This document shows, piece by piece, positions 6,424 through 56,584 of a stretch of DNA of 64,000 bases; position 1 is the first letter of the stretch, and every line of letters starts with the position of its first letter. Made by a program: the position numbers and the translations under genes. A model generated the notes under the pieces. That model worked only from the letters and a program-made list of their open reading frames with translations. It was not told the DNA's origin and did not search any database. Source of the DNA: Nocardioides jishulii (GTDB lineage: Bacteria; Actinomycetota; Actinomycetes; Propionibacteriales; Nocardioidaceae); the NCBI RefSeq assembly GCF_006007965.1, contig NZ_CP040748.1, forward strand, positions 620,001 through 684,000, in the 5' to 3' direction.

Positions 6424-7722
6424 CTAAGTCCGTCGGTGGAACCGTAGGTCGCCGTTGGCCATCCGGCTCATGTCGTAGCCGGGGTCGTGGGATCGGTGGT
6501 GATGGTGGGAGCACAGGAGCGCCGCGTTGGACAGGTCGGTGGCGCCGCCGTGTGACCACGGCACGAGGTGGTGCGCCTCGGACCAGGTGCCGGGGATGTC
6601 GCATCCCTCGGCTCGGCAGGTGGTGTCCCGCAGGGCGAGGGCCCGGCGTTGGGCCTTGGTGAAGAGTCGGGCGGCTCTGCCGACGTCGAGGACCTCGCCG
6701 TCGGTGCCGAGGACCGCTGGGATGATCTGGGCCGTGCAGGCCAGGCGCCTCGCCTGCGCGGCGGTGATCGTGGCGTGGCCGTCGCCGGGGGTGGCGTTGT
6801 CGATGGTGGCCACGCCGAGGTCGCGGGTGAGGGTCTCGAACGGGATCGTGACCATGAGGTGGGTGGCGTCGCCGCCGTGGATGGGCAGTCGTGTGGGGTC
6901 GAGGGTCTCCAGCAGCTGACCGAAGGCTTCGGCCATCCGGCGGGGGTGGGACCCCTGCATGCCGAAGCCGGTCTGCTCGTCGGTGTCGTGGCCGGTGTCG
7001 TGGCCGGTGTCGTCCTGAGCGGCGTTGCTGCGGACCGCACCGTCGCTCAACCTCGGATTCGTGAAGGCGTGCAGGTAGGTCGCCAACCTCGCGGCCGTGG
7101 CATCCGGGACGATCGCGCTGATCCGAGTCGTCCCATCGCCCAGGGCCCGGATCCGCAGGCGCTGCCGCTCGGCCGCGCGCTTCTCGGCCTCAGCGAGCCG
7201 GCGGGCTTCTTCCTCCTCGAACCGGTCGGGGTCGACGACCTCGAGGATCCGTCGGCCGAGCTTGACCAGGGCGCTCGGGTCGTGATCGGCAGCGAGCGCG
7301 ACGAGCCTCACCTCGGCTGCCTCGATCACGTCGGCACCGACTCGGGAGGGCAGCTCCTCCACGGCGGCAGCAATGACCCGCGCCTGCGCGATCGACACGT
7401 GCCCTTCGCGCACCGCGCGGGCCAGTACCGCGCGCTCTCGGTCCAAGGCGACTGCCAGCCGCAGGTCGGCTGCGGCGTCGCCGCGCCGCGTACGCGTGTG
7501 GAACGCCAGCCAGGCCGCAGCGTCCCGGAACCCCTCCGCGCCGGCCACGTCGCCCGCAGAGGCCAGCACGCGCAACCGCAGCTCCGCGGCGCGGCTCTCG
7601 AGGACGACCAGGTCGCGCAGCACCGCTGCCTTGTCGCCGGTGGGCATGAAGGTGGGGTTGACGTCGGCGACCGACTTCAGCGCCTCGCTGATCGTGCCGG
7701 TCAGCTCGCTCAACGGATGCAT
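6424..7722 (-). CDS. DUF222 / HNH endonuclease (13E12 family)
   Basis: A 432-residue protein with an N-terminal helical DUF222 region (about residues 10-300) and a C-terminal HNH nuclease domain. The nuclease shows two CxxxxC-like cysteine pairs flanking AHHLVPWSHGGATDLSN and a His-rich end (LCSHHHH). Such proteins occur in many copies in actinobacteria (13E12 repeats of Mycobacterium) and are thought to be selfish or DNA-repair-linked nucleases; their role is unproven. The ATG at 7722 has a GAGAGG ribosome site; a GTG at 7740 is possible. A short GHDT repeat near residue 235 comes from a 12-bp tandem repeat in the DNA. A perfect LexA operator lies 63-78 bp upstream, so SOS induction is expected. 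Confidence 0.88.
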   Translation of the reverse strand: MHPLSELTGTISEALKSVADVNPTFMPTGDKAAVLRDLVVLESRAAELRLRVLASAGDVAGAEGFRDAAAWLAFHTRTRRGDAAADLRLAVALDRERAVLARAVREGHVSIAQARVIAAAVEELPSRVGADVIEAAEVRLVALAADHDPSALVKLGRRILEVVDPDRFEEEEARRLAEAEKRAAERQRLRIRALGDGTTRISAIVPDATAARLATYLHAFTNPRLSDGAVRSNAAQDDTGHDTGHDTDEQTGFGMQGSHPRRMAEAFGQLLETLDPTRLPIHGGDATHLMVTIPFETLTRDLGVATIDNATPGDGHATITAAQARRLACTAQIIPAVLGTDGEVLDVGRAARLFTKAQRRALALRDTTCRAEGCDIPGTWSEAHHLVPWSHGGATDLSNAALLCSHHHHRSHDPGYDMSRMANGDLRFHRRT

Positions 7723-7784
7723 GCCGCCACCTCTCTCCACCTCATGTCAGCCCACGTGGAGCCGTCCCGTGCTTCCATTCTTGC

Positions 7785-52621: not shown

Positions 52622-55600
52622 ATGAGTCCACGACTGAAGCGCATGGTGGTCGCCATGTCGCTCACGGCCCTGGTGGCCGTACCGGGAGCAGCGCTCGCCG
52701 CCCCCGTGGCACATGCCGGGACGGTTGCTGCCGGCGCGCCGGCACCCGCCGAGGTGATCGGCGACGCGCCCGGGACCGCAGCCGCCTCCTGCTTCGAGGT
52801 CAAGCAGCTCCGTCCCTCGGCGCCCGACGGCGTCTACTGGCTCTACACGTCGCGCCTCACCCAGCCGATGCAGTTCTTCTGCGACCAGACCACCGACGGT
52901 GGCGGCTGGGTGCTCGTGGGCAAGGGGCGCGAGACGTGGAAGCAGGACCACTCCGGCCAGAACGGTGTCGCGGCGGACGGCAACACGACAGCCGCGATCC
53001 GCACCCCGGGACCCGGAAGCTCCCTCAACGTCGCCGTGCAGCTCGACGTGCCCACGGTGGACGGACTCCTGGACGGGGCCCCCGTCAGCTCCCTCTCCAG
53101 CGGCAACTCCGGCGACGGGGTCCGGCTGCGCCGGGCCCTCGACAGTGACGGCCTCCTGTGGCAGGAGGTGCGGACCCGCTACCGCAGCATGAGTGGCTGG
53201 TCGTGGAGCATCCTGGGGGCTGAGCACCCGCTCAGCGGCTCCACCATCGGAGGGCTCTCCTTCAGCAACGGCACCAACACCAACTACGGCACCAGCCAGC
53301 TCCACAACCGCGTGACCACCACGGGTGGCTCCGGCCGTGGATGGCGCTACGGGTTCCGCTACGGGAGCATGGTGACCGGTCAGAACAACTCGACCACACA
53401 CCTGTGGGCGCCCACGAACGGTGGGGGCAACGCGGCCCCCTACACGCAGGTCTACCTGCGCCCCCGGGTCCTGTCGTCCTCCTTCCAGGCTGTCGGTGAC
53501 AGCGGCACGCCCGCACGGGAGAAGCCGCGGTCGCTGCGTGACACCGCCGACGTGATGCCGTGGGGTGTCTCCGGCACCCGGGGCAGCACCTCGTCGGAGT
53601 TCAACAAGGAGGTCCAGGCCTTCGCCGAGGCTGACGGCGTGATGTATGTCGGCGGCAACTTCCGTTACGTCCAGCGGGACAACGGTGGCACCGGGCGCGT
53701 GGAGCAGTCGTTCCTCGCAGCGTTCGACAAGTCGACAGGGGAGTGGATCAGCTCGTTCCGGCCCCAGCTCAACGAGCAGGTCCACTCGCTCGCGGTCCTG
53801 CCCGACGGGACCGTCGTCGCCGGCGGTGCCTTCAGCCAGGCCAACGGCAGGGCGGAGACTGCCCTGGTCGCCCTCGACCCGGTCTCCGGCGCGACGCGGC
53901 CCGACTGGAACGTCCGGGTGGAGAACCGGGTCACCGGCAGCCCGCTGCGCATCATGACGCTCGACTACCGCGACGGACACCTCTACCTCGGCGGTGGACT
54001 GACCCACCTCGCCGGTGGGAGCGCGCCCACCACCTACCGCTACGCGAAGAACGCGGCGCGCATCTCCGTCCCCGGCTACACCCCCAGCAACGGGTGGAAC
54101 CCTGACTTCAACGGCACGGTCTTCGACCTGTCGCCGTCCGCCTCCGCGTCGAAGCTCTACTCCGCGGGATTCTTCACCACGGCGGTCGGTGAGACAGCGA
54201 CCAACGCGGCCGTCGTGTCGACGGGAACGACCGCCACCCTCCTCTCGAGCGGATGGAACCCCGTGTGGGCCGCTCCGAAGAGCTACCAGATGACGATCGT
54301 CGAGGGCGACGCCAACCGCTTCTACTCCGGTGGCTCCGAACACCTCGTCTTCGGATTCGACCAGACGACCTACGCCCGCACCAGCGGGACCATCTCGAAG
54401 AGCTTCGGCGGCGACACCCAGTCGTCCGACAGGTCCGACGACGGCCTGCTCTTCTTCGGGAGCCACGCCAACGAGTTCATCTACAACAACGCCTTCTCGT
54501 GGCCCAACCTCACCAGCGGCTGGAACCGTGCCGACAACGTCAAGTGGCTCGGCGTGTGGGACGCCTCCACCGGCGACTACGTCCCGGACTTCAGCCCCAC
54601 GCTCAACATGCGTGCCGGCAGTGGCATCTGGGCGGTCGAGGTCGACTCGACCGGCAAGGTGTGGGCGGGCGGAGACGTGACGTCGGTCGGCACCCCCAAC
54701 GGCGTGAGGTGGTCCGGCGGATTCGCCCGCTTCCCACGCAGCGACTCCACGGCTCCGGGAGCTCCCGGCAACCTGCGGCGTACCGCCAGCACGGCGAGCA
54801 CGGTGACGCTGGGCTGGAACGCTGCCCCCGGTGGTCCGGCGAGGTACCAGGTCCTCCGTGACGACCGGGTCGTCGCCGTCACCAACGGCACCCAGACCTC
54901 CCTCGTGGTCCCCCGGGGCGACTCAGGACGGTTCTTCGTGCGGGCGGTCGACGCGGCCGGCAACGTGGGCGCCTCGACCTCCGTGCTGAACCTTGACGAC
55001 CTGCCGGTGAACCAGGCGCCGTCGGCGACCTTCACCAGCGGCGTCGAGGGCCTGACCGTCTCTCTCGACGCTGCCGGATCGACGGACCCGGACGGTTCGA
55101 TCGTCTCCTACGAGTGGGACTTCGGCGACGGATCGACAGGTTCGGGGAGCACGGCGTCGCACACCTACACAGCCGCCGGCGACCACACGGTGCGCCTCAC
55201 CGTGACCGACGACGCCGGCGCCACCGGGGTCACGCAACGGACCGTCAGGGTCGCCGAGCCCTCCACCGTCACCACCGAGGTGGTGTCGTTGGGGTCGGAG
55301 TGGAAGTGGCGTTATGAGGCGGATGCTCCGGCGGCGGACTGGAGGAGTGATCCGCAGCGGTCGGCTGGGTGGTCGAGCGGTGTGGGGACGTTGGGGTGGG
55401 GGACGACGCCGTTGGGGACGAAGATCGATGATGCGTTCCCGACGACGAGCTCGCGGCCGTTGACGGCGTACTTCACCCAGCGGGTGGAGATCGACGATGC
55501 CTCGAGGGTCACTGAGCTGGTGCTGGACTCGTGGGCGGATGACGGTGCGGTGTTCTACGTCAACGGCACGGAGGTGGCGCGTCGGAACATGCCGACGGGC

Positions 55601-56584
55601 ACGGTGGGGCACGGGACGTACGCGGTGGCGGCGCGGCAGACGGCGGCGGCGAAGGCTGATCCGGTGCGGGTGTCGGTGCCGGTGGGTCTGTTGCGGGACG
55701 GGGTGAACCTGGTCGCGGTGGAGACCCACCTGAACTTCCGGGGCACGCCCAACGTCTCCTTCGACATGTCGATCACCAAGACCGTGGAGAACCGTCCGGC
55801 GAACCTGACTCCGACGGCGGTGTTCGACGCCGACTCCGCCGACCTCGTCGCGCGGTTCGACGCCAGCGGTTCCACGGACCCGGACGGTTCGATCGTCTCC
55901 TACGAGTGGGACTTCGGCGACGGCACGACTGGTTCCGGGGTCACGGCCTCGCACGCCTACGCCGCCCCCGGTGTCTGGACCGTGACGCTCACCGTCACCG
56001 ACGCTGGGGGCAAGACCGCCTCCGCGTCGCTCCCGGTCACCGTCGGCTCCCTGCCGACCGTCACCGAGGTGGTGTCGTTGGGGTCGGAGTGGAAGTGGCG
56101 TTATGAGGCGGATGCTCCGGCGGCGGACTGGAGGAGTGATCCGCAGCGGTCGGCTGGGTGGTCGAGCGGTGTGGGGACGTTGGGGTGGGGGACGACGCCG
56201 TTGGGGACGAAGATCGATGATGCGTTCCCGACGACGAGCTCGCGGCCGTTGACGGCGTACTTCACCCAGCGGGTGGAGATCGAGGATGCCTCGAGGGTCA
56301 CTGAGCTGGTGCTGGACTCGTGGGCGGATGACGGTGCGGTGTTCTACGTGAACGGCACGGAGGTGGCGCGTCGGAACATGCCGACGGGCACGGTGGGGCA
56401 CGGGACGTACGCGGTGGCGGCGCGGCAGACGGCGGCGGCGAAGGCTGATCCGGTGCGGGTGTCGGTGCCGGTGGGTCTGTTGCGGGACGGGGTGAACCTG
56501 GTCGCGGTGGAGACCCACCTGAACTTCCGGGGCACGCCCAACGTCTCCTTCGACATGGTCGCGACGCTGACCACCAACGAGTGA
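52622..56584 (+). CDS. Giant secreted protein: fibrinogen-like GGGW domain, PKD domains and duplicated beta-sandwich
   Basis: 1320 residues. A cleavable signal peptide (LTALVAVPGAALAA) is followed by a fibrinogen-like YCDxxxxGGGW domain (FFCDQTTDGGGWVLVG, about residues 50-285), a long repeat-rich middle (300-700) with motifs such as MYVGGNFRYV and LYLGGGLTHLAGGS that suggest a propeller, a fibronectin-type-III-like part (715-790), then PKD (800-882), beta-sandwich A (884-1049), PKD (1062-1145) and beta-sandwich B (1147-1312). A and B are almost identical. There is no sortase or membrane anchor; it is released or bound to surface glycan. Adhesion or polysaccharide binding is inferred from domain types. 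It is the largest product of the EPS locus. Confidence 0.85.
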   Translation: MSPRLKRMVVAMSLTALVAVPGAALAAPVAHAGTVAAGAPAPAEVIGDAPGTAAASCFEVKQLRPSAPDGVYWLYTSRLTQPMQFFCDQTTDGGGWVLVGKGRETWKQDHSGQNGVAADGNTTAAIRTPGPGSSLNVAVQLDVPTVDGLLDGAPVSSLSSGNSGDGVRLRRALDSDGLLWQEVRTRYRSMSGWSWSILGAEHPLSGSTIGGLSFSNGTNTNYGTSQLHNRVTTTGGSGRGWRYGFRYGSMVTGQNNSTTHLWAPTNGGGNAAPYTQVYLRPRVLSSSFQAVGDSGTPAREKPRSLRDTADVMPWGVSGTRGSTSSEFNKEVQAFAEADGVMYVGGNFRYVQRDNGGTGRVEQSFLAAFDKSTGEWISSFRPQLNEQVHSLAVLPDGTVVAGGAFSQANGRAETALVALDPVSGATRPDWNVRVENRVTGSPLRIMTLDYRDGHLYLGGGLTHLAGGSAPTTYRYAKNAARISVPGYTPSNGWNPDFNGTVFDLSPSASASKLYSAGFFTTAVGETATNAAVVSTGTTATLLSSGWNPVWAAPKSYQMTIVEGDANRFYSGGSEHLVFGFDQTTYARTSGTISKSFGGDTQSSDRSDDGLLFFGSHANEFIYNNAFSWPNLTSGWNRADNVKWLGVWDASTGDYVPDFSPTLNMRAGSGIWAVEVDSTGKVWAGGDVTSVGTPNGVRWSGGFARFPRSDSTAPGAPGNLRRTASTASTVTLGWNAAPGGPARYQVLRDDRVVAVTNGTQTSLVVPRGDSGRFFVRAVDAAGNVGASTSVLNLDDLPVNQAPSATFTSGVEGLTVSLDAAGSTDPDGSIVSYEWDFGDGSTGSGSTASHTYTAAGDHTVRLTVTDDAGATGVTQRTVRVAEPSTVTTEVVSLGSEWKWRYEADAPAADWRSDPQRSAGWSSGVGTLGWGTTPLGTKIDDAFPTTSSRPLTAYFTQRVEIDDASRVTELVLDSWADDGAVFYVNGTEVARRNMPTGTVGHGTYAVAARQTAAAKADPVRVSVPVGLLRDGVNLVAVETHLNFRGTPNVSFDMSITKTVENRPANLTPTAVFDADSADLVARFDASGSTDPDGSIVSYEWDFGDGTTGSGVTASHAYAAPGVWTVTLTVTDAGGKTASASLPVTVGSLPTVTEVVSLGSEWKWRYEADAPAADWRSDPQRSAGWSSGVGTLGWGTTPLGTKIDDAFPTTSSRPLTAYFTQRVEIEDASRVTELVLDSWADDGAVFYVNGTEVARRNMPTGTVGHGTYAVAARQTAAAKADPVRVSVPVGLLRDGVNLVAVETHLNFRGTPNVSFDMVATLTTNE
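55273..55768. repeat. 496-bp repeat copy A inside the giant surface-protein gene
   Basis: Matches 56062-56557 with an offset of 789 bp; only two substitutions were found by eye (the GAC/GAG codon in EIDDAS vs EIEDAS and a silent GTC/GTG). It encodes one beta-sandwich of about 165 residues. Codons are G-ending (GGG, TTG, GCG, TCG) with some GAT and TAT, whereas surrounding codons end in C. Confidence 0.97.
56062..56557. repeat. 496-bp repeat copy B inside the giant surface-protein gene
   Basis: The second copy of the segment at 55273-55768. The PKD-coding DNA preceding each copy is also partly duplicated (identical for about 50 bp at 55082 and 55874, offset 792). Confidence 0.97.

Follow-up and report, generated by a model that had tools for sequence, protein, structure and literature searches.

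The window analysed here, a 64,000-nucleotide stretch corresponding to positions 620001-684000 of the single-contig 3.54 Mb genome of Nocardioides jishulii (G000 below), contains at 52622..56584 on the plus strand a gene for a predicted secreted protein of 1320 amino acids, and two nearly identical segments within this gene are the subject of this analysis. The gene was characterized by family matches together with a signal-peptide-like N-terminus and an FN3-like region, both recognized by eye. The protein comprises a fibrinogen-like YCDxxxxGGGW domain (residues 56-99, 52787..52918, plus strand; NF040941, 68.1 bits at a cut-off of 30), a weak propeller-repeat match (DUF5122, 19.7 bits, under its cut-off of 27) and two successive units, each consisting of a PKD domain and a module of ~165 amino acids. 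Both PKD domains (PF18911/PF00801) score over the cut-off; they lie at 55065..55226 and 55857..56018 on the plus strand, are of ordinary codon style and have diverged from each other to 80% DNA identity. Nocardioides daphniae has the closest named relative, a PKD protein of 1053 amino acids (71% over 80%).

The near-identical segments lie within the modules, at 55273..55768 (copy 1) and 56062..56557 (copy 2) on the plus strand. As a preliminary description of this DNA had stated, each is 496 bp long and they differ at two positions only; neither edge can be extended by even one base. The foreign-looking preference for G-ending codons noted there was also confirmed, with G at 79-80% of the four-fold degenerate sites, and so was an excess of T endings. 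The four-fold sites (n=103 per copy) carry G 81, C 13, T 9 and A 0 in copy 1 and G 82, C 12, T 9 and A 0 in copy 2, compared with G 193, C 311, T 39 and A 35 of 578 upstream in the gene, and T accounts for 8/29 and 8/28 of the C/T-ending codons in the two copies but for only 2/160 upstream. Third-position GC is not elevated (147/165 in copy 1 vs 801/883 upstream), and the third positions of both copies are polarized towards the keto bases, G and T. Among the 42 likely open reading frames (ORFs) of the window, the four-fold G content per 100-site stretch reaches 0.82 here and at most 0.56 in every other stretch; for the keto content (G+T) per 100 four-fold sites, the gene tops the 264 kb sampled of this genome with 0.91, the runner-up having 0.68. 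The G style wanes across the final ~50 bp of each copy, and the identity persists to the copy end. A search of the 3.54 Mb genome, proposed with the preliminary description, revealed no further copy of the 496-bp segment; the third DNA match spans just 50 bp (E 4e-4).

The nearest single-contig relative, G023, encodes an orthologous gene with one PKD domain and one module in the same place, rather than two copies of normal synonymous divergence. The suspected variation in copy number thus fits between species (one module there, two here), the comparison being one between species only. Amino-acid identity to the orthologue is 0.68 inside the module and 0.73 outside, four-fold identity is 0.49 in the module and 0.52 in the remainder of the gene, and the G023 module has ordinary codons (four-fold G 0.44, C 0.49). 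Because divergence is similar inside and outside, the module appears to be as old as the gene, its synonymous sites having changed in one direction and not faster. Relative to G023, C->G changes amount to 22/30 in copy 1 versus 62/229 elsewhere in the gene (p 1e-6), whereas G->C changes amount to 1/29 versus 69/144 (p 2e-6). One direction raised and its reverse lowered is the mark of biased fixation.

Of the two positions at which the copies differ, the first (C at 55495, G at 56284, plus strand) exchanges Asp and Glu and is a Ser codon in the orthologue, which makes it uninformative. The second (C at 55561, G at 56350, plus strand) is synonymous for Val; since the orthologue and copy 1 share C, the G at 56350 is likely the newer state, most simply a new C->G change that has so far neither spread nor been lost.

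The suggestion that the copies are kept equal by gene conversion was supported. They are 99.6% identical to each other but only 72% and 71% identical to the single G023 module, and they differ at 1/103 four-fold sites, whereas the two PKD domains differ at 11/37 (26/37 shared, 0.70). The four-fold identity to the G023 PKD domain is 0.57 for PKD1 and 0.50 for PKD2; by amino acids, and contradicting the four-fold sites, PKD1 is closer to the G023 PKD domain (0.64) than to PKD2 (0.55). Because of this disagreement two ages of the duplication are compatible with the alignments: the PKD-plus-module unit may have doubled after the split from G023, or it may have doubled earlier, followed by a loss in G023. 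With either age, the sequences indicate that the modules were equalized while the PKD domains drifted. We therefore consider it very probable that the near-identity arose through gene conversion, and the directional change points to conversion that recurs. Within the diverged PKD pair (55065-55226 / 55857-56018) we also observed an identical block of ~47 bp, perhaps a short conversion tract of its own.

We further explored the module family in five overlapping genome sets, for which the E-value limits differ. Matches came from 7 of 39 relatives, 28 of 215 genomes in the genus, 25 of 394 in the class, 19 of 49 in a second genus and 38 of 398 in a second family. Neighbouring pairs on the same strand and in the same ORF, picked by eye, were fetched, many singletons and weak matches were left out, and matches aligned over less than about 100 residues were excluded, so that 116 modules in 76 ORFs were compared, from 72 fetched stretches and the home gene. 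Five ORFs contain same-gene module pairs with 94.9-100% DNA identity, and all other same-gene pairs have at most 84.0%. The change in keto content against the own-gene background in these five is 0.47 in G000, 0.41 in G339a, in the opposite direction, 0.32 in G020, 0.16 in G596 and 0.02 in G404a. An absolute change of at least 0.3 was found in 3/5 ORFs with near-identical pairs and in 1/71 of the others (Fisher 5.6e-4). The style is hence not common to all homologous modules, strong polarization occurring in three of the five near-identical pairs and in the sole exception among the 71, the amino-rich (A, C) module of G940; the next highest value is 0.20. The G940 module is located at a contig end, and a second contig starts with its last 139 bases at 100% identity. 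Because the assembly breaks at the module and the two contig ends share these bases, the G940 module is probably also a repeat; counting it post hoc as near-identical gives a Fisher p of 1.2e-5. In the G020 pair, which is of G style and only 52% identical in amino acids to the home module, a diverged patch is flanked by identical blocks. The G339a pair resides in a phosphoesterase-like protein (judged by eye; G339 C1:1927835-1928857, minus strand, L055) with two 98.7% identical modules of extreme C-ending style, with four-fold C at 0.88-0.89 and T at 0-0.01.

The axis of these shifts is keto versus amino (G, T versus A, C), not G versus C. In the log-odds of module versus gene for G000, G020, G596, G339a and G940, the contrasts G/C, T/A, T/C and G/A have the same sign in 20/20 cells, with a mean size of 1.77, whereas the G/T and A/C contrasts are smaller (mean 0.55; p 1.7e-4, the six contrasts not being independent) and near zero in G020. 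For T versus A alone, a stratified test gave z 4.38; T in C/T-ending codons is individually significant in G000 only. A single keto weight predicts G/C/T/A frequencies of.73/.20/.07/.00 for G020, where.73/.19/.07/.00 were observed. This fit is close in G020 and G940 and rough elsewhere, T being overpredicted in G000 and A in G339a.

The sign of the polarization follows replication orientation, for which the origin was taken at dnaA and the replichores were assumed to be equal, with the terminus at half the chromosome. The G000 gene (plus strand at 0.675 Mb, dnaA at 251) is codirectional with replication and keto-rich, and the G339a gene (minus strand at 1.928 Mb, dnaA at 465133, genome of 3.464 Mb) is head-on and amino-rich. 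The G596 gene, located on the contig of its dnaA in a four-contig assembly, is codirectional and weakly keto-rich. The G020 contig carries glnA in the same orientation as the pair, at a distance of about 50-55 kb; because every one of 29 single-contig genomes in the genus has glnA codirectional (with 13 genome sizes rounded), we infer that the G020 pair is codirectional as well, and it is keto-rich. The leading strand is thus keto-rich in 4/4 placeable pairs (chance 1/16), G940 and G404 being unplaced. Ordinary genes differ little: in G000 the keto content is 0.433 in codirectional and 0.414 in head-on genes (117 vs 64 ORFs, difference 0.019, p 0.09), and in G339 it is 0.437 and 0.422 (63 vs 53 ORFs, difference 0.015, p 0.15), ORFs with fewer than 80 four-fold sites being left out.

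Three other observations were made along the way. A 1244-amino-acid protein of G339, membrane oxidoreductase-like by eye, carries in its C-terminal part acidic repeats of 91-98% identity (L231:5202-6122) that are head-on and have C-rich third positions, the expected sign for G versus C but not for T versus A, in a sequence of low complexity. In G020, a non-coding-looking 72-bp tandem array (C7 L133:4372-4719; 4.8 copies, 93%) has a keto content of 0.64 on the leading strand as placed above. The dnaA gene of G023 (C1:148-1550) was matched as two pieces in different frames, perhaps owing to a sequencing error in the assembly.

A second repeat family, the DUF222/HNH genes, which are dispersed multicopy genes, behaved similarly. 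We used 86 of the at least 124 copies matched at E <= 1e-12 in ten genomes, leaving out a weaker seventh match in G000 (L030) and 12 other searched genomes, 2 of which had no match. The mean keto content is 0.514 in codirectional and 0.426 in head-on copies (p 2e-5), and 0.503 versus 0.419 in copies whose best paralogue is 85-92% identical (p 3e-4). Per genome, the codirectional fraction of the fetched copies correlates with their mean keto content (rho 0.90, n 10, label permutation p 1e-4; rho 0.99, n 7 inside the genus), with G/(G+C) (rho 0.92) and with T/(T+A) (rho 0.66, p 0.04). Per cluster, rho is 0.83 (n 16) at 80% identity and 0.75, 0.72 and 0.85 at 85, 88 and 90%, and codirectional and head-on members of one cluster differ by 0.009 (p 0.41). 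Shared conversion predicts that a family takes on the average of its orientations, which would account for both the uniform clusters and the trend with the genome fraction. In G000, the two codirectional copies at C1:582434 and C1:806891, 96% identical to each other, are keto-rich (0.60-0.62), the values for three head-on copies are 0.39-0.40, and L138, 94.8% identical to a head-on copy, has 0.37 although it is codirectional. A repeat-family effect irrespective of orientation was rejected, since these G000 genes looked mixed only until orientation was considered. One of the seven matches in G000 lies in the window, at 6427-7746 on the minus strand.

Taken together, these data make a replication-oriented keto drive in recombining repeats somewhat more probable than not. 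A candidate for the underlying filter is the mismatch endonuclease NucS/EndoMS, NucS_C being encoded in 17/17 genomes checked, including the one with the unpolarized G404 pair. The enzyme has been reported to favour G-T, G-G and T-T mismatches and to act weakly or not at all on the rest, A-C in particular (PMC8228993). It reduces recombination between 517-bp repeats 3-fold at 95%, 10-fold at 90% and 5-fold at 85% identity, and not at 100% (PMC5290159). In M. smegmatis, with oligonucleotides annealed to the lagging-strand template, G-G, G-T and T-T are removed in a NucS-dependent manner, mostly within about 6 nt, whereas C-C, A-A and A-C persist (PMC11551744). This keto-keto mismatch set, the anti-recombination on ~500-bp repeats and the short-patch removal on the lagging template would fit the repeats studied here; in the accessible parts of these reports, the enzyme is known for mutation avoidance and anti-recombination, not for a drive on repeat composition (PMC8228993, PMC5290159, PMC11551744).

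In a codirectional gene, the sense strand serves as the lagging-strand template during replication and might be invaded by the antisense strand from the other copy. If the donor had G and the recipient C, a C would come to lie opposite C, NucS would ignore it and C would become G; with donor C and recipient G, the resulting G opposite G would be repaired and G kept. By the same logic T would beat A and C, and G would beat A, while G/T and A/C would be neutral, and in a head-on gene the sense strand would drift the opposite way and become amino-rich. Repeats similar enough to recombine would hence drift towards a keto-rich leading strand, and diverging repeats would escape. The data agree with this scheme in the four driven contrasts and in both signs, and partly agree with it in the two neutral contrasts. 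That recombination falls steeply with divergence would explain the gap between pairs of at least 94.9% and those of at most 84.0%, and a supply of C/G variants is plausible because G:C>C:G makes up 31.2% of the substitutions in wild-type S. ambofaciens lines, more than any other class (PMC11109965).

Three elements of this scheme are inferences: the recurrence of conversion, its use of the strand annealed to the lagging-strand template, and the action of NucS as the filter. That NucS-filtered lagging-strand conversion explains the G/T-rich style of the near-identical copies seems to us about an even chance; the role of NucS itself may hold with a chance close to even or slightly below. More tentatively, and with somewhat less than even confidence, mismatch repair in NucS-bearing bacteria may act as a one-way valve on conversion, so that any recombining repeat would be driven towards a keto-rich leading strand, foreign-looking codon styles would be footprints of recombination, and repeat families would record their orientation and conversion rate.

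Among known processes, GC-biased gene conversion is a conversion with a base preference that imitates selection at synonymous sites. It raises G+C strand-symmetrically, whereas here third-position GC is not raised and the base preference depends on the strand and flips with orientation, as the opposite sign in G339a illustrates. Replication-strand GC skew resembles our observations in that the leading strand is richer in G and T (PMC8941118, PMC5291525), but it is reported as typically ~2.5% genome-wide (PMC8941118), compared with four-fold keto shifts of 0.3-0.5 in the strongly polarized repeats. The conversion hotspots of M. tuberculosis, which include REP13E12, likewise involve conversion between paralogues with a distinct substitution spectrum tied to NucS, and the authors of that preprint suggest that repair asymmetry could reshape composition; there, however, T>C/A>G changes are enriched with complementary classes pooled, and the available text mentions neither strand polarity nor replication orientation (PMC13061034). 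A literature search, which covered few subscription journals, yielded no report, in the texts accessible to it, of strand-polarized conversion by NucS or of a composition drive on repeats.

Several observations weigh against replication-oriented, NucS-filtered conversion. The G404 pair is 100% identical and its genome encodes NucS, yet its polarization is 0.02, which is why we rejected absence of NucS as the reason; the G596 pair, also 100% identical, is weakly polarized (0.16), and both pairs would need to be young. A rank test across all 76 ORFs gives p 0.012. The near-identity of the home copies could also result from a single recent conversion or a re-duplication of the module alone, and the closer amino-acid relationship of PKD1 to G023, which runs counter to the four-fold sites, leaves the duplication compatible with either age. 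Taken locus by locus, T versus A reaches significance in just two, G000 and G940; A/C departs from neutrality in G000 and G339a (about -1), and G/T is +1.2 in G940. Polarized tandem loci are few, and the orientation result relies on four pairs, of which one was placed indirectly and one lies on a multi-contig assembly, and on the assumptions about dnaA and equal replichores; short tandem arrays are keto-rich on the leading strand in 4/6, which is uninformative. For DUF222, just part of the matched copies entered the comparison, the difference is 0.472 versus 0.339 below 75% identity (p 0.11) and 0.629 versus 0.429 at 75-85% (p 0.057), and at 92% identity and above it disappears (codirectional 0.516, head-on 0.539, p 0.67, n 10/5). 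Two DUF222 pairs are off the trend, L138/L139 in G000 (half codirectional, 0.377) and L186/L191 in G110 (half, 0.59); the background genes were measured in G000 and G339 only, and the DUF222 correlations ignore the kinship of the genomes. Finally, according to the available text of the M. tuberculosis preprint (2026), recombination may proceed with reduced NucS repair (PMC13061034), which speaks against NucS as the filter.

The alternative that survives best is strand-asymmetric mutation at repeats, in which C->G and C->T changes would arise on one strand through recombination or single-stranded exposure, with conversion doing no more than spreading them. Both remaining differences between the copies are C/G and the polarizable one looks like a new G, the sign follows replication, and the S. 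ambofaciens spectrum, as reported, is led by the same class, G:C>C:G (31.2%; PMC11109965). A mutator, however, would only add changes and leave the reverse class untouched, whereas G->C is suppressed (1/29 vs 69/144) and four-fold divergence is not raised (0.49 vs 0.52); the data point to a fixation bias, and we regard asymmetric mutation as unlikely, though with an appreciable residual chance. The same polarized conversion might also be read by something other than NucS, such as polymerase proofreading, helicase rejection or any repair that ignores C:C. MutS is reported to miss C:C likewise (PMC11551744), and NucS is present also where the G404 pair is unpolarized, but an effect on C:C only would not shift T versus A, for which z 4.38 fits the list of NucS mismatches, and we consider another reader improbable.

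We give little weight to synonymous selection on the repeat, be it for mRNA structure, the pace of translation or recombination-promoting G-quadruplex motifs. Quadruplex-like motifs do occur, each G000 copy having 2 and each G020 copy 5 on the sense strand, and each G339a copy 1 on the antisense strand; however, there is none in G940 or G596 and one in the unpolarized G023 module, so that the motifs do not track the polarization and were rejected as its cause, and the dependence of the sign on orientation and the DUF222 result would be left unexplained. Very unlikely, too, is a selection of orientation by composition, with keto-rich sense copies surviving in codirectional and amino-rich ones in head-on position: it would yield the same DUF222 correlation, but the change of style in place relative to the orthologue and the near-identity of the copies would remain without explanation. 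The origin proposed in the preliminary description, a foreign module with its own codon style that was imported and recently duplicated, hardly deserves credence despite the sharp contrast to the flanks, because the orthologue has the module in place with similar divergence and ordinary style, the second G-style pair (G020) is just 52% identical in amino acids, the third pair (G339a) is C-style, and the segment had no DNA match in the plasmid and phage collections.

If conversion filtered by NucS is indeed at work, the replication fork would set the direction in which a mismatch-repair enzyme shapes the codon usage of repeated genes, and segments with odd codons in actinobacteria could be miscalled as horizontally acquired. 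Conversion rate and past orientation could be gauged from sequence alone by the strength and sign of polarization, repeat conversion in NucS organisms would be assigned to the lagging strand, and the role of NucS during recombination in vivo would become testable from genomes and one reporter.

The ~165-amino-acid module alone has no match in Pfam. A profile of 14 module sequences matched the S. avermitilis rhamnosidase structures 3w5m/3w5n partially, over profile residues 7-106, with an E-value of 4.7e-6. The sugar-binding domain of this Streptomyces avermitilis enzyme is one that we take to be CBM67, and we predict, from this resemblance in sequence and from a structural model, that the module is a putative carbohydrate-binding module. 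The model is of moderate confidence (predicted local distance difference test, pLDDT, 74.6; <50 for residues 40-60) and its closest fold matches are chains of GH2 glycosidases; 3w5m ranks 19th, with a Foldseek TM-score of 0.42 (by query length). At the protein level, another gene of G000, at C1:2771057-2771584 on the minus strand, encodes a third, distant member of the module family (E 4e-16). A scan of genome contigs gave a single distant locus, with 40% identity.

The genes neighbouring the home gene encode Wzz-like, acyltransferase-like and flippase-like proteins, every match being under its curated cut-off, as well as methyltransferase-like and sulfotransferase-like proteins that were recognized by eye and have no family match.

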